Shown here piece by piece: positions 2,462 through 50,529 of a stretch of DNA of 64,000 nt. Positions within the stretch are counted from its first letter, which is position 1. The number at the start of each line of letters is the position of its first letter. This DNA comes from Natrialba sp. SSL1. Its GTDB lineage: Archaea > Halobacteriota > Halobacteria > Halobacteriales > Natrialbaceae. The notes beneath the pieces were generated by a model that saw only the letters and a program-made list of their open reading frames with translations, searched no databases and was not told the DNA's origin. The position numbers were made by a program, and so were the translations under genes. The DNA is taken from contig NZ_MASN01000029.1 in assembly GCF_001861355.1 (NCBI RefSeq), positions 124,001 to 188,000 of the forward strand. Direction: 5' to 3'.

Positions 2462-4113
2462 AAGGACACCCCAGCGTCACCGACCGTCATCTCGTCAAGG
2501 ACGTCCTTGCGGTTGTCTGCGAGCGGCACGGAGCTACCGTCGGCGAGGTCGGCTTCCACGTCTTCGTAGGCAACCGGACCCTCGACCTGCTCTGCCTGCG
2601 GGCCTGGCTCGTTGCCCAGGTAGATGATGTTCGGGTTGGTACCCATGTCCTCGAGCAGTTGGAAGTTCGAGTCCGGTTCTCCGGCCTCGTTCACGAGAAC
2701 GGTCTGTGCCGCGCTCTCGTCTGGACCGTCGAACTCCTCGTCCTCGTCCGGTTCGTCGGCGAGATCGAGTCCGACGAGGACCTCCTCGCTGTCGAGATCG
2801 AGACCGTGTGCTTCGAGTGCATCGAAGGCGTCGACGATGTTCTGCTCGTATTCGGTGTGGCTGGCGTCGCCCTCACCGAAGTCCTCGGAGACGATTTCGA
2901 TCGCCTTCATGATTCGGAGCGTCTCCTCGTCGAGGTCTTCGGACGCTTCCAGAACGGACTCCAGGTCGTCGTCTGCGCCGTCGAGGTCGTCCTCGAGTGC
3001 GTCCGCCGACGGGACGCTCATGTCGATGTCGGAGAGTGCGCGACCACGGGCCGGGTTGTCGGCGTAGGTCTGCGGGTCACTGTTGTCGTCGAACATGTTG
3101 CCGAACTGGATCGCGTCCGGCGGACAGGCGTCCTCACAGGCGGTCGTTCCGACAGCGTCCTCGCCCATGCCGCCGTCCTGGCGGGTTGGGCACATCGTAC
3201 ACTTGCTCATGACGCCACGTGGGGCACGACTGTCGACCCAGCGACCGCGCTCGTCGCTCATGTGGTCGTGTGGGACATCGCTGTCGTGATCGTGGTCGCC
3301 CATTTCTTCCTGTGCCTGTGCCTCGATGTCTTCCGTGGTGATGTCAGGTTCGTCCCACTGGAAGTAGTTGACACCGTACGGACAGGCAACCTGGCAGTAT
3401 CGGCAGCCGATACAGACGTCGTAGTCGGTCAGGACGAGGCCGTCGTTGTCACGCGTGTGACGCGCGGTCGTCGGACAGACCTTCTCACACGGTGCGTCGG
3501 TACAGTGCTGGCACGGTCGAACGAGTCGGTTGCGACTCGTGTCGACACCGTTGTCCTCGTAGTCGAGGACGTACATCCAGTTGACACCGCGGTCCAGGTT
3601 GTTCTCCTCTGCACAGGCCTCGACACAGGAGAGACAGCCGTCACAGCGCTCGAGATCGATCGCCATACCCCACTGAACGTCCTGCTCAGTGTCGTCGCCC
3701 TCCTGGGCGGCGGCGACGTTCGGCTCGCTCTCGCTGCCTCCTTCCGAGGCACCGAAGGCACCGAGACCGACGAAGGCTGCACCGGCACCCATCTTCTTCA
3801 TCATGCCGCGGCGACTCTCTTCGCCGTCGCTGTCGACACTCTTCAGCATCTCGGCGAAGCCGCCAGCGTTCTTTTGGGCCTCTTCGTAGGCCTCCTCGGT
3901 TGGGCGGTCGTCGACGCCGAACTCCTCCATCACGTCGTCGTGATACTTCTCGTGGAAGTCGGCTTCGGAGAGTTCGCCCTTCGTGACGCGCATGGCGTCT
4001 TCGGCCATCTGCATCCCGAGGTCGCTGTCGTACTCGGTATCGTCGAGCATCGTCTCGAGCTCATTTTCCCACTCTTGACCGAGTGGATGGAACGATTCGT
4101 CTTCCGTACTCAT
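2458..4113 (-). CDS. NrfC/PsrB-like 4Fe-4S ferredoxin with an internal Tat-like motif
   Basis: A 551-residue acidic protein. Cysteine groups resembling four 4Fe-4S sites are seen: CDGCLSC at about 157, CQHC at 201, CIGCRYC at 234, and a later CTMC with a distant CEDAC. This is the pattern of the electron-transfer subunit of molybdoenzyme-type complexes. A twin-arginine-like motif SRRGMMKK followed by a Gly/Ala-rich hydrophobic stretch lies at residues 100-122, after a roughly 100-residue acidic N-terminal region, which is unusual. The C-terminal 230 residues are acidic with no cysteine cluster. No catalytic molybdopterin subunit is encoded beside it. Confidence 0.85.
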   Translation of the reverse strand: MSTEDESFHPLGQEWENELETMLDDTEYDSDLGMQMAEDAMRVTKGELSEADFHEKYHDDVMEEFGVDDRPTEEAYEEAQKNAGGFAEMLKSVDSDGEESRRGMMKKMGAGAAFVGLGAFGASEGGSESEPNVAAAQEGDDTEQDVQWGMAIDLERCDGCLSCVEACAEENNLDRGVNWMYVLDYEDNGVDTSRNRLVRPCQHCTDAPCEKVCPTTARHTRDNDGLVLTDYDVCIGCRYCQVACPYGVNYFQWDEPDITTEDIEAQAQEEMGDHDHDSDVPHDHMSDERGRWVDSRAPRGVMSKCTMCPTRQDGGMGEDAVGTTACEDACPPDAIQFGNMFDDNSDPQTYADNPARGRALSDIDMSVPSADALEDDLDGADDDLESVLEASEDLDEETLRIMKAIEIVSEDFGEGDASHTEYEQNIVDAFDALEAHGLDLDSEEVLVGLDLADEPDEDEEFDGPDESAAQTVLVNEAGEPDSNFQLLEDMGTNPNIIYLGNEPGPQAEQVEGPVAYEDVEADLADGSSVPLADNRKDVLDEMTVGDAGVSL

Positions 4114-4242
4114 CGCGTTAGAACACCTCTTGACATGCGGTTCCAGTCACAACGTGAGTACGCAACGGCACCCACTTGAATACGTTCATTTGCGGTTCCT
4201 CTAAAGCGCACTCACCGCTACTAATCGAAGAAAGACACAGTC

Positions 4243-20580: not shown

Positions 20581-21483
20581 TCAGTAGTGCCACGGATAGT
20601 CGTCGAACTCAGGATCGCGACCCTCGACAAATGCGTCGCGACCCTCCTTCGCCTCGTCAGTCATGTAGCCAAGCCGGGTCGCCTCGCCGGCGAACACCTG
20701 TTGGCCGACCATGCCGTCGTCGGTCATGTTGAACGCGTACTTCAGCATCCGCATCGCCGTTGGACTCTTGGAATTGATGCGTTCGCCCCACTCCAGCGCG
20801 GTCTCCTCGAGTTCGTCGTGGGGGACGGCTTCGTTGACCATGCCCATCTCGGCGGCCTCCTCGGCGCTGTAGGTCTTTCCGAGGAAGAACACCTCGCGCG
20901 CTTTCTTTTGGCCGATCTGTTTGGCGAGGTAGGCCGAGCCGAAGCCGGCGTCGTAGCTTGCGACATCGGGGTCGGTCTGGAGGAACTTCGCGTGCTCCTC
21001 GCTGGCGAGCGTCATGTCACAGACGACGTGCAGCGAGTGACCGCCGCCGACGGCCCAGCCGGGGACGACGCAGACGACAACCTTCGGAATGTGTCGGATG
21101 AGGCGCTGGACTTCGAGAATGTGGAGTCGCCCCTGCTCGGATGCGCGGGCTGTCTCGCTCTCCTCGTCCTCGCCGGTGTACTGGTAGCCATCGTCGCCGC
21201 GGACCGTCTGATCGCCGCCGGAACAGAACGCCCAGCCACCGTCTTTCGAAGAGGGGCCGTTGCCGGTGAGCAGGATACAGCCTACGTCGGTCTGGCGCTT
21301 TGCGTGATCCAGCGCGTCGTACAGTTCGTCGACCGTCCCCGGGCGGAAGGCGTTGCGAACGTCGGGGCGGTCGAACGCGATGCGGACCGTCCCGGAGTCG
21401 ACCGCGCGGTGATAGGTGAGATCGCGAAAGTCGAACTCGTCGACCGGCTCCCACCGGTCTGCGTCGAAGCATTCCGAAACCAT
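20581..21483 (-). CDS. menB: 1,4-Dihydroxy-2-naphthoyl-CoA synthase
   Basis: A 300-residue crotonase-fold enzyme that closes the naphthoate ring. The CSGGDQ motif, the oxyanion segment GWAVGGGHSLH and the DPDVASYDAGFGS block are typical of MenB. A minus-strand TATATC box at about 21505-21510 gives a leaderless start at 21483. It is separated from menA-C-E by three exported proteins on the same strand. Confidence 0.95.
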   Translation of the reverse strand: MVSECFDADRWEPVDEFDFRDLTYHRAVDSGTVRIAFDRPDVRNAFRPGTVDELYDALDHAKRQTDVGCILLTGNGPSSKDGGWAFCSGGDQTVRGDDGYQYTGEDEESETARASEQGRLHILEVQRLIRHIPKVVVCVVPGWAVGGGHSLHVVCDMTLASEEHAKFLQTDPDVASYDAGFGSAYLAKQIGQKKAREVFFLGKTYSAEEAAEMGMVNEAVPHDELEETALEWGERINSKSPTAMRMLKYAFNMTDDGMVGQQVFAGEATRLGYMTDEAKEGRDAFVEGRDPEFDDYPWHY

Positions 21484-21667
21484 TGGCCGACTGTCGGGGG
21501 CGAATCCTGATATAGGTTCTCGTCGCCAGTAGCTCGATTCTGTATAGCACTAGTCGATTTATTAGGACGAAATCGGACAGCGCTGGACAGCCACCGACCA
21601 CCAGACAGTTCATATCAGTAATACTTACCAACCAGTATACTGTGCCTCCGATAGGCTACTGGAACCG

Positions 21668-22669
21668 ATGGGTGAGACCTACTACGACGTGCTCGGCGTC
21701 GAGCCAACCGCCACGCAGGACGAACTCGAGTCCGCCTACCGCGAGTGTGTCCTCGAGACCCATCCGGATCACAACGATGCCCCCGACGCGACCGAGCAGT
21801 TCCAGCGCGTCTCGACCGCCCGCGAGGTACTGACGGACGAGGCCGAACGAGCGAGGTACGACCGCCTCGGGCACGAGGCCTACGTCCAGGCGGAGAGTGG
21901 CGAGCCAACGGCGCAGGCGGGATACTCGAGTACCAATGCCACTGCAACCACAGAGCAACAAACGCGACGGGAGACGAATCGCAACGGTCGAGCGAGGCAG
22001 CGGCGGAATCGCGACTGGTCGTTCGAGGAGATTCGACAGGAGGCTGAGCGGGAACGGGCGCGGTCGCAGTCTGGGTCGCGGTCCAGTTCCCGCTCTGGTT
22101 CTGGTTCCGGTTCCCGCTCTCGTTCTCGCTCTCAGACCCAGCGGACGAAACACACTCGGCACACCAGACAGACACAGCAACACGACCACACCCAGACCAG
22201 CACAAACACGACGAACACTGAACCCGGGTCAACCGCGTCCGCAGATCAGACAGACAGCACAACCGACACCACGACCAGCGACGACTTCCAGTACGCCGTC
22301 CACGACTGGAACGACGAGGTGGAACTCGAGTGGCAGGGACGAGCACTCGACCACCAGACTATCGTCGGGCTCGCCTGTATCTGGCTGCTCTACCCGGTGT
22401 TCATCTATGCGAGCCTGACACCGGTGTTTCCCACGAGCGCCAATGCGGTCGTCGCCGTCTGCACCCTCGGACTCGTCGCCTATCTGCTGACACTGCCCCG
22501 AATCGCTGCCGGCATCTTCGGCTCCTGGAGTCTGCTCGTTTCAGTTGCGCTTCTCACGATCGAGGCGATTCCGATCGCCGTGCTGTCGGTCTACGGCTTT
22601 CTCACGCTCGCAGGCGTCTGGGTGCCGTTTGGCTATGCACTCGCGGTCTGGTGGGTGCTACGGCCCTGA
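21668..22669 (+). CDS. Membrane-anchored J-domain protein
   Basis: A 333-residue protein. Residues 4-68 are a J domain with the HPD tripeptide at 32-34, which would stimulate a DnaK/Hsp70 ATPase. Residues 100-215 are a disordered Arg/Ser/Gly then Thr/Gln/His-rich segment from hexamer-like DNA. Residues 232-333 contain three or four membrane helices. This is not DnaJ: there is no zinc domain or C-terminal client domain. A TATA box GTATACT at about 21634-21640 supports the start. It is opposite in strand to the men genes on both sides. Confidence 0.82.
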   Translation: MGETYYDVLGVEPTATQDELESAYRECVLETHPDHNDAPDATEQFQRVSTAREVLTDEAERARYDRLGHEAYVQAESGEPTAQAGYSSTNATATTEQQTRRETNRNGRARQRRNRDWSFEEIRQEAERERARSQSGSRSSSRSGSGSGSRSRSRSQTQRTKHTRHTRQTQQHDHTQTSTNTTNTEPGSTASADQTDSTTDTTTSDDFQYAVHDWNDEVELEWQGRALDHQTIVGLACIWLLYPVFIYASLTPVFPTSANAVVAVCTLGLVAYLLTLPRIAAGIFGSWSLLVSVALLTIEAIPIAVLSVYGFLTLAGVWVPFGYALAVWWVLRP

Positions 22670-45631: not shown

Positions 45632-46579
45632 ATGGGCGAGACGATTCCGATCGCAGTTCCTCGCAAAGGACGACCACTCGAGTCGGTACTGGATCGACTC
45701 GCGAGTCGGCTCGGCGTCCCGGATCTCGCAGACGAGATCACGTCGACGCTTCGCCACGAAAAGGCCCTGACGAAGGGCTCGCTGGATCCAGACGAGGAAA
45801 ACGTCTACCATCGTCTCGCAGCGTACAGTACAGTCGACGACCCAACCGCGCCCGAGTACACGCTCGTCCGAGATACGCGCGCCGGCAAGCCGCGGCGGAT
45901 CGTCTTCGATAGCGTGACGATTCCGCTCAACGGCGCAGACGGGAGTGGGCTTGACGGGACCGGGACCAGCGACGAGGCGTCGATCCAGCTCGTCGGCCGC
46001 GAAGAGCCCTTCCGCGCACTGCGCACCCACGAGTTCGCACTCGGGTTCGACAGCGCCGACCTCGTCCTGGAGGAGGTCGTCGACCTCCGTCCGGACCCGC
46101 TTGGGCGGATCGCCGATATCAACGCCCGAATCGATCCCGCGGAGTCCGACGTTCGCGTCGTCACCGGCCTCGGCGACACGGTCTACCACACGCTAATGGG
46201 GAGTCCCGAAACCGTCCCCGCTGCGACCGCCCTCGACCGCGACTACCTCGCCGACTACGAAGGACCACTCTGTATCGAACCACGGTACGAACGTCTGGTC
46301 CGGGCCGTTCTCGGAACCAGCGTGCTCGAAGACATCGAGTTCCACTACCCCAACGAGGGCCGCGAAGAAGAAGCCGCCATCGCCGACACCGGCCTCGGCG
46401 TCTACCTCACCGTCACCGGCTCGACCGCCCGCGAGCACGGCCTCCTGCTTGGCGAACAACTGTTCCCGAGCGAAACGGTGCTACTCGAGAGCACCCCCGA
46501 AATATCGGAGGAGGTCGCGGCCGTTCGGTCGCTGTTGAACGGCGGCGATCTGGAGACGGAACTGGCCGTCGAGCAGTAG
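45632..46579 (+). CDS. HisG-like protein (ATP phosphoribosyltransferase paralogue)
   Basis: A 315-residue protein. The N-terminal IPIAVPRKGRPLE resembles the HisG start, and a later VTGSTAREHGLLLGE resembles the PRPP-binding TGxTLRENGL loop, followed by SETVLLES as in HisG. The middle differs, with an insert of about 40 residues near 105-125. It could be a HisG paralogue with a changed substrate. A GTTTATC box about 23-30 nt upstream gives a leaderless start. hisF elsewhere in the window is not linked to it. Confidence 0.6.
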   Translation: MGETIPIAVPRKGRPLESVLDRLASRLGVPDLADEITSTLRHEKALTKGSLDPDEENVYHRLAAYSTVDDPTAPEYTLVRDTRAGKPRRIVFDSVTIPLNGADGSGLDGTGTSDEASIQLVGREEPFRALRTHEFALGFDSADLVLEEVVDLRPDPLGRIADINARIDPAESDVRVVTGLGDTVYHTLMGSPETVPAATALDRDYLADYEGPLCIEPRYERLVRAVLGTSVLEDIEFHYPNEGREEEAAIADTGLGVYLTVTGSTAREHGLLLGEQLFPSETVLLESTPEISEEVAAVRSLLNGGDLETELAVEQ

Positions 46580-46701
46580 CCGACCCTTTTCTCATGCGAA
46601 CACAGCACTCGCTGAATAGCTGCATCATCCGCACACAGTTTGGAGGGCCAGTATTCGAGGGAACATACAATTCGGTCGCGTTGCCGCACGCCGGCTCTTT
46701 C

Positions 46702-46726
46702 GATATAGCGATATAGAATATATCTG
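46702..46726. repeat. Left copy of a 25-bp imperfect inverted repeat
   Basis: This AT-rich 25-mer starts GATATAGC and matches the reverse complement of 49895-49919 at 21 of 25 positions. It lies just beyond the 3' end of the recombinase gene. Confidence 0.5.
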
Positions 46727-46788
46727 TCCAGGATAAGGCGGTAGAATTGAGTACAGATATAGTAACAATAGGCCTCGGTGAGGGGAAT

Positions 46789-47850
46789 TCACACCGTATT
46801 CGGCCCAGACGTTACAGCGTAAATATGGTCCAGATACGTCTCTCGCACCCGATCCCCCCAGTTGTGGGTGTACGTATCGATCACGTCGCCCGCGACATCG
46901 CCTCGCAGATACTGTACAGTCCCTCGATCACCCGTCCGATCCCGGAGATGGGTGGTGAAGAAGTGTCGAAAGTAGTGTGGTGTAACGTTCTCGGTCGTCC
47001 CCCCGCCAGTCCGGTACCAGCCGTGCTCACGGGCGTGTTTCTCGACGATATAGCGAACGTCTGAGGGCGTAAGGCGTTCGCCCCACGAGTCTCTGGTGTC
47101 GAGAAACAGCGGCTCTGCAGGTGAAACTGCATCCGGTCGGATCGCGAGCCAGGACTCGAGTTCCCCTCGCAACTCGTCGTCGACGGGAATCACCGTCTCA
47201 CGCTTTCGCTTGTTCGACGCCGTCCGTTCCTCGCCGTTCGTGACCGCGCCGCGAGAGGGCTCGTCCGAGACGTACACCGACGAAGGTCGGCGATCGAGTT
47301 CGACGCGCGGCGTCCACTCGAGTGCAACCGCCTCGAAGTCGGCGTTGAGATCTTGCAGGTCGAGGTTACAGAGTTCACCGACACGCATCCCGGTCTTCAG
47401 CAGTGTGACGACGACCGCACGCTCTAGTGGGTGGGAGATCGAGGCGACGAACGACCGCATTTCGCCGATAGAGAGCTCTCGTCTGGTCGGATTCGTGTCG
47501 ATGGATTCGGACAGTTCCTCCATGACGAGCGCCATCGGGTTCTCCTCGAACGCGCCGACGCGGTTCATGTAGTCGTAGAATCGGTTGAGGTAGGAGGCGT
47601 AGGTAGCGATCGTGCTCGGTTCGAACTCGCCGCGCAGGGAGTGGATCCAGGCCATGCAGGCCCGTCGATCCGCGTCGGAAACCACCTCTACGGAGTCAAA
47701 CTCCTCACCGAGGAAGGTCTCGAACTGTCGAAGAACTCGCTCGTAGGCCTCGAGCGTCCGTTCGCTCTTGCCGTGATAGCGCTGGTCGTCGAGGAAGTAG
47801 GCGATCGGATCGTCGACATCCTCGACCTGCCCGGTCGCGTCAGTTGCCAT
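46789..47850 (-). CDS. Tyrosine recombinase (XerC/D-like integrase)
   Basis: A 353-residue phage-integrase-type enzyme. The N-terminal SAM-like domain spans about 10-105 (DDPIAYFLDDQRYHGKSERT). Catalytic Arg is in TGMRVGELCNLDL, the HxxR pair in HYFRHFF, and the nucleophile is probably Tyr in DTYTHNW; the usual Gly-His before it is replaced by Gly-Asp. The start at 47850 is chosen because it overlaps the end of the DUF5805-like gene by 11 bp. The two are cotranscribed. It may act in chromosome dimer resolution, integration or inversion. Confidence 0.9.
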   Translation of the reverse strand: MATDATGQVEDVDDPIAYFLDDQRYHGKSERTLEAYERVLRQFETFLGEEFDSVEVVSDADRRACMAWIHSLRGEFEPSTIATYASYLNRFYDYMNRVGAFEENPMALVMEELSESIDTNPTRRELSIGEMRSFVASISHPLERAVVVTLLKTGMRVGELCNLDLQDLNADFEAVALEWTPRVELDRRPSSVYVSDEPSRGAVTNGEERTASNKRKRETVIPVDDELRGELESWLAIRPDAVSPAEPLFLDTRDSWGERLTPSDVRYIVEKHAREHGWYRTGGGTTENVTPHYFRHFFTTHLRDRTGDRGTVQYLRGDVAGDVIDTYTHNWGDRVRETYLDHIYAVTSGPNTV

Positions 47851-48232
47851 CGCCACCACCGGTCGTCGTGTACCCACCGTGGCGACCGCTGTATCGGATC
47901 TGGTTGTCGGACTGGAGCTCCTCGAGTGTGTCATCGAGTCGCGATTCGATGTCTTCGCTGACCGCGTCCAGAAGCTCGTCCCACGAATACGTGTCAGAAG
48001 AGAGTAAGTTTAGAACCTGTGTTTCGAGGGCGTTACCCCCAGGGTCTGACCCCTGAGAAGTGGGTTCCTCTGAGGCGGGTTCGAACCCCTTCCGACCGGC
48101 TTGTACCATCGTCCGAACGAACTCGCTCTGGCTCATGTCGAGTTCGTCGGCGTGGGACTGCCATTCTGCTTTCTGATACGCCGGCACGTATGCTTTAACA
48201 GATTTCCGAGAGGTGTCCGCAGAGTCGCTCAT
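47840..48232 (-). CDS. DUF5805-like protein with ribbon-helix-helix-type N-terminus
   Basis: A 130-residue protein. Residues 8-45 (KSVKAYVPAYQKAEW, then MSQSEFVRTMVQAG) fit a ribbon-helix-helix DNA-binding fold. The C-terminal half has a helical pattern ending in a winged-helix-like RYSGRHGGY. It precedes and overlaps the recombinase, a pairing I recall as common in haloarchaea. It could be an excisionase-like or regulatory partner. A perfect inverted repeat lies 76 bp upstream. Confidence 0.75.
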   Translation of the reverse strand: MSDSADTSRKSVKAYVPAYQKAEWQSHADELDMSQSEFVRTMVQAGRKGFEPASEEPTSQGSDPGGNALETQVLNLLSSDTYSWDELLDAVSEDIESRLDDTLEELQSDNQIRYSGRHGGYTTTGGGDGN

Positions 48233-48307
48233 ACAGCATCCCTCAATCGCCGTGATATTCAAGGTTCCCATTAGTAGAGCTAAGTGAGTTTATCTCCACC
48301 TCTGTCA

Positions 48308-48329
48308 CCCATAATGTGACGATTATGGG
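48308..48329. promoter_or_regulatory. Perfect inverted repeat upstream of the DUF5805-like gene
   Basis: CCCATAAT-GTGACG-ATTATGGG has eight-base perfect arms. It is 76 bp before the start of a gene whose product looks like an RHH DNA-binding protein, so it is a candidate site for it. Confidence 0.5.
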
Positions 48330-50049
48330 GACACTTATTAAGATTAGTATCTCAAAATCACCACAAATTGAGATACAGCCCTTCCCAATGTGTTCCTACC
48401 AGTTCAGATACGTAGCTGAGAAAAACGTGGAACACAGCAGGCCACCGGTTCCTGAAGAACACACGTATTCTGATAGGATAGCAGAAAACTCACTCGAGTT
48501 CGGGAGCCAAATGCAGCGAGATTCGGCACGGATTTGTGACGGTACTCGAGTCCGATCTGGCACCCATTTCTGGTGCGTTCAGATGCGGAGAGATCGTGAT
48601 GGGAAGACTGCGATCGCGCTGACTGAGTGGACCGCGGATAGTGGAGGTTGGGATCGAAGGGTGGGTATCGAAGGTGGACTCGAGTACGGCCCCAAGTAAG
48701 CAGTCGGGTGATCGTCACGGCTGGCATTGGGGTGAAGAATGGAACAGACGGCGCATTGTCTGAGCGCGCACCAACAATCGATCAAACAGGACAGAAGGGA
48801 CTGAACGCCAGACCCGTCCGTCGAACGGGTGGGCGGGTTGGTCGAGAATTGCACAGCAACGGTGCGAAACACCAGTGAGCAGCTCCCAGCGGCGACTAGA
48901 GGAGCCACTAAGAGTCAAGACACACCTGGCAAGACAGCCACGTGACCAGTGTGTGAACCGCTTCAGTTGTTCCTATAGCGGGTCCAGTACCGTGAGAGAC
49001 ACAGACAAATCAGCACCCGTGTAGCCCAGGACGGCGAAGAACTGTGCGGAGACAGCGAACACCGTGAGTTCGCCGATCGCTGGCACAGCAAAACGCTGTC
49101 GACAGATGACGGGGGAGCGGGGCGGCCACAACAGACGGACCGCCATCGGAGATCGTGAGGGAGAGGCCGCCACACTCGCGCCAGTAGAAGCTCTTCGGAC
49201 CGGTCCCAGGCGATGAGTTGTGTAGAAGTTCCACATCTTCCGGTAGTCAGCAGGACCGTATCAGAACGCTCTGAGAGCGGCGCAGAGCAGATTTCGATGG
49301 TGTGTGTTCTGTGGGCCAGATAGTCCGTTCAACCGCGCTAACACCATCTCTCGAGTAGAATTGGGGACGGTGTACGGTTGCCGGCGGTGATGTCGCAAGC
49401 AGCCGTTCGTGGATTCGGTACCTGGGGTCTCGCGAGACTGTTTGGTCGTGGTGTACTCGAGTACACTGCCAGGACAGCGGATCAGTTGCTGAAGCGAGCG
49501 TGAAGCAGAATCGGTGTGTCTGTGTTATCGAGGGGACTGTGGAAGTGATTCGTCGACGGTACAGCGTGCAAAGAGGCTGAGTGGCGGCATTCAAGGGGCT
49601 CTCCTCTCAGCCCCGGAGCGATAGTGCCAACCGACACTCGTTTGCATACCGATCGCAGAGTCTGCAGCTCTCACTTACCGTTCTCGTTCCGAACCGCGCT
49701 TTCCACTGCAATCGGGTGCGTACTGACCGCCAGCGGCTACGATGGAGCTACTGCGATAGAGTTGATCACCAATCCGAACGACATGGTTGCAGGACTGGCT
49801 GCGACGAGGGAGGCTAGGAATAGCGGCGATACAGAGGCTGGAGTGATGAGTGTTATTTGATAACCTTGGACACGGAGTGGTGGTATACATCAACCAAATA
49901 AATTCTATAATGCTATATCCAATACCAGGCGAGTCGGCTGCGGCAATGGGACTCGAAAAACACGCTCTCAGGCGTGATAGATCCCGAAAGCAGTTGAATA
50001 CAGCTAGTAATCAGATGACAACCAAAACGAAAATTGCCTGCAAACCCAG
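48330..50049. other. Gene-poor block of about 1.7 kb
   Basis: Only short open frames interrupted by stops are present on both strands, and none has a recognisable motif. A hydrophobic stretch on the minus strand near 48975-49080 and one on the plus strand near 49690-49800 could be remnants of membrane protein genes. The block has four exact ACTCGAGT sites (48492, 48544, 48678, 49455). It looks like decayed DNA next to the recombinase genes, but I see no clear insertion sequence. Confidence 0.45.
49895..49919. repeat. Right copy of the 25-bp imperfect inverted repeat
   Basis: Reverse complement of this AT-rich segment matches 46702-46726 at 21 of 25 positions. It bounds the gene-poor block on the right. 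Confidence 0.5.
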
Positions 50050-50283
50050 TCAGTGCGTCGCCGCTCGAACGTCGTCGACGTGATAGAGGTCCTGCTGAAG
50101 CCCTTCGCCGTCACATTCCTCGCTCGGACATTCGTAGTGCCATCCGTCCTGTGTTGCGGCCGCTTCACGGAAGCGGTCGCCACAGACCTGGCAGAACAGC
50201 TGTCCCTTCTGACAGGTGTCTCGGTGAAGTTCGAGCGCGAGTTCGGTCTGGAACGACTGGTTGCAGTCGCGACAGGTGTGCAT
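50050..50283 (-). CDS. 77-residue C2H2-type zinc-finger protein
   Basis: The N-terminus has a classical finger: CRDCNQSF...LELHRDTC, that is Cys-x2-Cys, 12 residues, His, Cys. A second CxxC knuckle (FCQVCGDRF) and a later H/C group (WHYEC, EEC) may form another site. Archaeal C2H2 proteins are short and may bind DNA. A GGAATAAAAATACCC box about 40 nt upstream on the minus strand supports ATG 50283 over a frame starting at 50310. Confidence 0.75.
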
Positions 50284-50529
50284 ATTATGTCTGACGCGAG
50301 CATCCCCCAAAACTGCTTGGGTATTTTTATTCCGCTCATATCAGACGTGATACGGCACCATGGCGTCGATTTGCTCGCAAGCGTCGCGGAAGAAAAACAG
50401 ACTCGAACCGAAGAGTTCCTGCTTCCGATGGAACTGTTCGCTGTCAAGATGTGTGCAGACAGCAACCGAAAGCAACCGTCTGGAAAAGCAGTCAGCGGAG
50501 TGGTACACAGAAATCCGGACCAGAGTAGT

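Follow-up and report, generated by a model that had tools for sequence, protein, structure and literature searches.

A repeat pair beside a core haloarchaeal tyrosine recombinase is one case of a widespread facing-pair motif

Described recombination sites and the repeat pair

Inverted sites near a recombinase can form invertible switches, of which fim in E. coli and the inversion system of the Natrialba virus phiCh1 are examples, and exchange by tyrosine recombinases normally needs matching middles. The available part of a study of Acinetobacter plasmids describes dif modules, in which genes are bounded by oppositely oriented short sites and two module configurations alternate; the spacers of neighboring sites differ (its Table 1), and exchange at pdif sites is with identical or nearly identical spacers (PMC13141974). 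Archaeal dif sites have been predicted in the Thermococcales and the Sulfolobales: the portion of PMC2958812 that we draw on gives one 28-bp dif site per chromosome in the Thermococcales, in the termination region, and for Sulfolobus solfataricus a predicted dif near xerA, present twice at a single chromosomal location. The main text of that paper contains none of the words halophil, Haloarcula, and Halobacterium. A review of Haloferax, in its available part, leaves the dif question open (PMC7776575), and the corresponding part of a review of archaeal tyrosine recombinases does not mention the sites that we describe here (PMC8371274). Among the matches listed in our literature search (subscription papers and preprints were outside its scope), no title or abstract start describes these sites, and the string tatagcgatat has 0 occurrences in the related papers that were text-searched.

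The locus that we analyzed lies in a 64-kb stretch of DNA from Natrialba sp. SSL1 (the window). It resembles XerA/dif of Pyrococcus abyssi in that a chromosomal Xer-like recombinase with catalytic residues is accompanied by short intergenic sites, and the placement of these sites can be likened to that of the predicted S. solfataricus dif. Unlike the single Thermococcales site, there are two facing sites beside the recombinase and more copies per haloarchaeal genome, and the motif does not have the archaeal dif layout of a 28-bp site with two 11-bp inverted arms and a 6-bp spacer. Neither is it recognizably the 11-6-11 XerC/XerD layout of dif: in the consensus, the right half does not mirror the left half, and the left arm resembles published XerC arms no better than chance (168 to 1272 of 3000 shuffled arms score as high; for XerD arms, 1405 to 2156 of 3000). 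As in the dif modules of Acinetobacter, sites occur as facing pairs, copies alternate in strand at multi-site loci, and middles are unmatched; unlike those modules, the haloarchaeal sites are chromosomal and core, and what lies between the paired sites is rio2, NifU, or the recombinase gene. The likeness to the fim and phiCh1 switches lies in having inverted sites near a recombinase; unlike in those switches, the middles of the sites are unmatched, side changes are rare, and we saw no switched promoter.

The features of the locus, and a third motif copy in the window, are:

21537–21566, plus strand: third, weaker motif copy (28.3 bits; motif learned from relatives)
45632–46579, plus strand: flanking gene P315, on the site 1 side; no Pfam match; used for scoring orientation
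46698–46727, plus strand: motif site 1 (41.8 bits; genome match E = 1.6e-4), just 3' of the recombinase stop, facing into the segment
46789–47934, minus strand: tyrosine recombinase, Xer-like (PF00589, E = 5.5e-16; PF02899)
47840–48271, minus strand: DUF5805 partner protein (PF19121, E = 2.8e-29), overlapping the recombinase gene
48272–49893, no strand: gene-poor block inside the bracket; no gene detected
49894–49923, minus strand: motif site 2 (40.8 bits; genome match E = 6.0e-4), where the gene-poor block ends on the side away from the recombinase, directed inward
50050–50310, minus strand: flanking zinc finger gene, on the site 2 side, near the HVO_2901 family (NF041915, 76.4 bits, cut-off 80)

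A preliminary description of the window reported that the 25-mer at 46702–46726 (plus strand) matches the reverse complement of 49895–49919 at 21 of 25 positions, and that the two enclose a tyrosine recombinase, its partner, and a gene-poor block. We confirmed both the match and the content, which is the recombinase, the DUF5805 partner, and a 1.6-kb block without a detected gene. The repeat pair is one case of something larger, a widespread facing-pair motif of about 30 bp, ATTNGRTATAGCGAYATRNRRTTTAYNNGT. Its core, GATATAGCNNTATAGAAT, occurs with up to 3 mismatches at just two places in the window, both of them repeat sites (the mean for shuffles is 0.02), and at 11 places in the 4.58-Mb genome, with exact matches at the two repeat sites only. 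Among 60 dinucleotide shuffles of the 3.45-kb region, none had any 25-mer inverted pair with 21 or more matches. Both sites do lie in AT-rich intergenic DNA, and the preliminary description had named chance similarity of AT-rich sequence as what might undo its proposal; the shuffles, the scarcity of the core across the window, and the conservation near the gene in relatives contradict this explanation, and we consider it extremely improbable. The window's two sites have 2 differences in the presumed middle (columns 13–19). The third copy looks single and lies between divergent genes, for an enoyl-CoA hydratase-family protein (20581–21483, minus strand) and a DnaJ-domain protein (21668–22669, plus strand).

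Two other ideas about the locus were rejected. Integration at a tRNA was dismissed, as the window has no tRNA gene, and an RNA hairpin (TATA-GCGA-TATA) was dropped, as the would-be pairs were not among the 15 strongest column dependencies across 143 sites. A scan of 46500–50400 with Rfam gave no match at E ≤ 1. The spacing on the site 1 side varies: from the recombinase end to the next conserved gene is 0.24 kb in the window and 2.7 kb in N. hulunbeirensis (L039:7116–9789; labels beginning with L and G are our own, for loci and genomes).

The recombinase is a core haloarchaeal gene, found in 57 of the 61 genomes searched and in all 50 relatives that are at least 90% complete; the window's protein is 95% identical to that of N. 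hulunbeirensis. R184, H320, R323, and Y355, which we take to be catalytic, are invariant across 21 of 21 aligned recombinases, and at the usual place of a second histidine all 21 have aspartate (D346). By sequence, its solved relatives include XerA and XerD. It scores 123 bits against the NCBIfam model for XerA (NF040815), whose curated cut-off is 220 bits; this is the best match to the model in its genome, in which no protein is above the cut-off. Translation may in fact begin at an internal ATG near 47850. When we used the recombinase as a profile (46792–47934), the top-scoring solved chain was 9i5v_14, which is named ribosome-associated translation inhibitor RaiA (401 amino acids); the best stretch covers the N-terminal part only. 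For DUF5805, the AlphaFold2 model is of low confidence (mean pLDDT 64.9) and had no match in the PDB at E ≤ 0.001; weaker fold matches include ribbon-helix-helix and winged-helix proteins. DNA binding by DUF5805 is only a suggestion.

The motif at the recombinase loci of relatives

The preliminary description had proposed comparing the locus with relatives, and this comparison identified the repeats as conserved sites tied to the recombinase. In a pattern scan, the same words adjoin the recombinase in relatives. We then scored 80 haloarchaeal recombinase loci (the window, 78 of 80 named loci after L084 and L101 were dropped for being too short, and L119) with a 30-bp profile. With a threshold of 16 bits, we found the 3' copy in 76 of 80 loci and the 5' copy in 73 of 80. 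The profile was trained on the loci that it scores; for these counts, each locus's own sites were left out and its relatives were kept. In the other four loci (L081, L082, L107, and L117), the 3' copy lies just outside the first search stretch, which brings the 3' copies to 80 of 80. No 5' copy of at least 16 bits was found in L067, L069, L078, L079, L085, L098, or L114. Shuffled sequences (1.02 Mb) had 0 matches at 16 bits. Across 79 loci (omitting L119), matches of at least 20 bits cluster close to the gene: 157 fall within 531 kb around it, whereas the remaining 476 kb of these loci have 5. Of the 162 matches, 160 were on the inward strand. The scanned loci share ancestry.

A motif-free search for 25-mer inverted pairs recovered the window's pair, as well as the motif in some relatives (for example L061, L083, L086, and L099), where it accounts for some of the highest-scoring pairs. 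We gave it up in favor of the profile: the best pairs in relatives had 17–23 matches of 25, most of them at the level of the locus's own shuffles, and in L111 it found a pair with 21 of 25 that is not the motif. The search picks shuffle-level pairs in most relatives because the sites paired at a locus frequently agree at only 15–20 of 30 positions; the conservation is visible by profile only.

The extent of the bracket varies. In Halorubrum (L104, L109, and L116), an MBL-fold gene separates the recombinase from the far copy, which is about 4.6 kb away on the 5' side; a weaker copy is found in the interval. In G045 (L264:3939–9796), the bracket also encloses genes for a presenilin-like peptidase, Gar1, and SRP19. 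Halomarina halobia has a recombinase with two motif copies on the chromosome and another on a plasmid (L080 and L092).

Copies of the motif at other genes

To describe the motif genome-wide we used a sequence-only model (R1), built from 103 sites, in which the row for the window's site 1 begins one base late. All 61 genomes have at least one match at E ≤ 1, a level at which about 1 chance match per genome is expected, and four of the 61 (G007, G037, G049, and G053) have no match better than E = 0.02. Despite the weak genome-wide matches in G007, both copies at its recombinase locus score 30 bits. The Natrialba genome has 16 matches at E ≤ 3, among which are four facing pairs besides the one at the recombinase; some of these four are weak. 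Across six genomes, there were 7 to 16 matches per genome (E ≤ 3 for Natrialba and E ≤ 5 for the others). Neighboring matches at most 6 kb apart in these genomes were convergent in 20 of 23 cases, of which the orthologous loci are not independent, and convergent pairs hold 40 of the 61 matches. (The count of 23 is based on 45 matches from the other genomes and 10 of Natrialba's 16; the unpaired ones that were omitted have no neighbor within 6 kb.) For instance, G045 has 7 matches, of which 6 form three pairs, at the recombinase, rio2, and NifU.

At rio2, we examined 30 loci: 20 had two copies of at least 20 bits, 7 had one, and 3 had none, with 0 matches in 2.3 Mb of shuffled sequence. (This count was made without binning by side, as a side-binned count misplaces L208 and L220, where the copy overlaps the stop codon.) Many of the upstream copies (13/22) begin 75–93 bp before the gene match. 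At RecJ/NifU, NifU was seen in 18 of 20 loci, and each of the 18 carries one or more copies that score 16 bits or above; in loci with two or more copies, the strands alternate in 15 of 16 cases, with L308 as the exception. Conservation of the pairs at rio2 and NifU extends across several families. In those pairs that we read gene by gene, we found no recombinase gene inside except in L148. That the same sites occur at rio2 and RecJ/NifU points to a wider function, which none of the families that we considered explains.

The motif also accompanies other tyrosine recombinases. Five of these were checked with Pfam, of which one (L148) was below the cut-off, and further ones were judged by eye. 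Among 126 matching plasmid records, we read ten loci, and nine have a copy of at least 26 bits beside a recombinase; L296 does not.

Inversion, turnover, and competing explanations

The preliminary description suggested that inverted sites around the recombinase could allow the segment to invert. This was not borne out: paired sites are hardly more alike than re-paired ones, side changes are few, and the genes inside the rio2 and NifU pairs were not found flipped at any locus scored. We compared the sites of 69 of the 80 loci, those with more than 25 bits at both ends (three of the 3' copies came from outside the first stretch). At most columns, identity within a locus was close to that of re-paired sites; columns 2, 10, 15, 26, and 29 were slightly more alike within a locus (z of 2.5 to 3.1). 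Paired sites had no common middle beyond a slight excess at column 15. These unmatched middles are evidence against easy inversion in many of these species, including that of the window.

We also scored the direction of the recombinase by its flanking genes, for the 54 loci with a scorable flank. In 41 rows it faces one flank, and in 13 the other. On a tree of these 54 rows, direction needs 5 changes, of which at least 3 are forced, versus 11.8 with shuffled labels, and direction is alike in all 29 rows of the main Natrialbaceae clade. So, side changes happened, but seldom. Both directions are seen when different genera are compared, and Halorussus alone contains both. The end of P315 is 72–73 bp from its site in both orientations (L094 and L103), and the flanking genes point into the segment in both orientations, so no switched promoter is evident. 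At rio2, a downstream gene on the same strand, which by eye we take to encode ribosomal protein L15e, is present in 11 of the 11 loci where it could be seen (of 20), and the other neighbors vary; the direction of NifU is constant in 18 of 18 loci.

The bracket of Halorussus ruber contains two opposed copies of the recombinase. The first, which is interrupted, is nearest to those of H. amylolyticus and H. marinus (84–86% over 194 residues), and the second is nearest to those of H. litoreus and H. halobius; in H. amylolyticus and H. halobius, the orientation is opposite. Where two opposed copies are present, what looks like inversion can therefore result from the replacement or loss of either. 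Copy replacement does not explain H. halobius, which has the opposite orientation and is nearest to the second copy, so this may be a true inversion. Overall, the bracket does not look like a frequently flipping switch.

The DNA inside the bracket turns over. Two records named Natrinema hispanicum (L046 and L053) are about 93–94% alike outside the bracket and 92% alike over the native gene pair, but where L046 has the gene-poor block, L053 has a second DUF5805-recombinase pair in the opposite orientation. Both retain two motif copies, in stretches without an end-to-end BLAST match. That the copies were kept while the surrounding DNA was replaced suggests that the sites matter. Adjoining the second, opposed pair in L053 is an open frame (3389–4240) with an HNH-like start, identified by eye, joined to a recombinase-like end. 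We considered a decayed second recombinase as the source of the gene-poor block and rejected it: just 2 of 74 blocks (L053 and L110) have an opposed copy, and we found no remnant of a second recombinase in the window's block. The block of L064 has a recombinase match on the same strand (33 bits, E = 7e-10), and a DUF5805 match in the block of L080 is probably that locus's own gene reaching into it.

Another recombinase module, of 1.5 kb, is present in both the Natrialba genome (L149) and G006 (L191), a genome of the same genus, where the two are 85% alike. On the left, the similarity begins 3 bp beyond the motif, with no match found in the surrounding DNA; the right end is not sharp. The surroundings of the Natrialba module are also found in G003. 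In G002, the module has kept one of its flanks, while the second is 48 kb away and carries no motif copy, so an empty site for the module (C4) was not found. The suggestion that the repeats mark the ends of an old element holds in part, in that a motif copy marks the left end of one module in two settings; as an account of the window's locus it fits poorly, because the recombinase is core and the flanking genes are common to many relatives.

Our preferred reading, which we hold tentatively at somewhat under even confidence, is that the repeats are Xer-type sites that bound a module and are bound by the recombinase machinery; the motif is probably a candidate docking site for the recombinase. 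This reading is supported by the 3' copies at 80 of 80 loci and 5' copies at 73 of 80, by the crowding of matches near the gene, by the convergence of neighboring matches in six genomes, by the sites at other tyrosine recombinases and on plasmids, by the conserved catalytic residues, by the solved relatives XerA and XerD, and by the module that occurs in two settings. Against it are the rio2 and NifU pairs without a recombinase, the unmatched middles, the lack of significant likeness to XerC arms, the score below the XerA cut-off, the copies that look single (such as 21537 in the window), and the four genomes without a good match. We rate a regulatory or architectural site nearly as probable, since the pairs also occur at core genes where there is no recombinase: the motif might instead be an operator, insulator, or loop anchor that works in convergent pairs without strand exchange and is bound by a regulator, which could be DUF5805, the recombinase as a mere binder, or another protein. 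The conservation at RecJ/NifU and at rio2, the spacing of upstream copies before rio2, the unmatched middles, and the single copy between divergent genes would all fit such a role. Yet the motif is tied to several kinds of tyrosine recombinase, chromosomal and plasmid-borne, its distance to gene starts can be as short as about 50 bp or as long as about 2 kb, and in many pairs one of the copies is 3' of the gene.

An invertible switch, with the recombinase inverting the bracketed segment, we consider unlikely. Inverted sites around a recombinase, the occurrence of both directions among genera and inside Halorussus, and the constant spacing of P315 in both states speak for a switch; however, direction changed few times over the class, the middles of paired sites differ, the flanking genes face inward in both states with no switched promoter evident, an apparent flip could also arise by way of two-copy loci, and neither rio2 nor NifU flipped at any locus scored. 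Slighter still are the chances that the sites are terminal inverted repeats of an old family of tyrosine-recombinase transposons, since domesticated along with their short derivatives. The pairs that flank recombinases or short segments with no recognized gene, along with the one module in two contexts, are suggestive of transposition, but the fixed positions at core genes over several families, and the copies that persisted while the DNA around them was replaced, are not.

If the sites are of the Xer type, the Xer-like recombinase machinery, perhaps with DUF5805, would bind both conserved sites, which face inward and would bound a module in which a variable block accompanies the genes for the recombinase and DUF5805. 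Similar pairs around other tyrosine recombinases and a few core haloarchaeal genes would be bound likewise. Strand exchange at the sites might serve dimer resolution or module exchange. By analogy to the dif modules of Acinetobacter, where the middle letters of the sites differ, the module would normally stay put and be reshuffled rarely. With less assurance than for the Xer-type sites themselves, we speculate that a small, class-wide set of facing pairs, bound by the core recombinase and DUF5805 and marking modules at rio2, at RecJ/NifU, at other recombinases, and at the core recombinase, which would thus sit between sites of its own, could represent an undescribed system of chromosome organization, either dif-like or loop-anchoring. 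In any case, deeply conserved candidate sites beside a core recombinase are now available for direct testing.

Facing pairs are also found around 0.8–1.1 kb of DNA on the 5' side of an Orc1/Cdc6-like gene, at L154:2596–3734 and L256:2538–3327. The gene was identified by its Cdc6 lid domain in L256, where another open frame lies between, and by eye in L154. These pairs are possibly near a replication origin.
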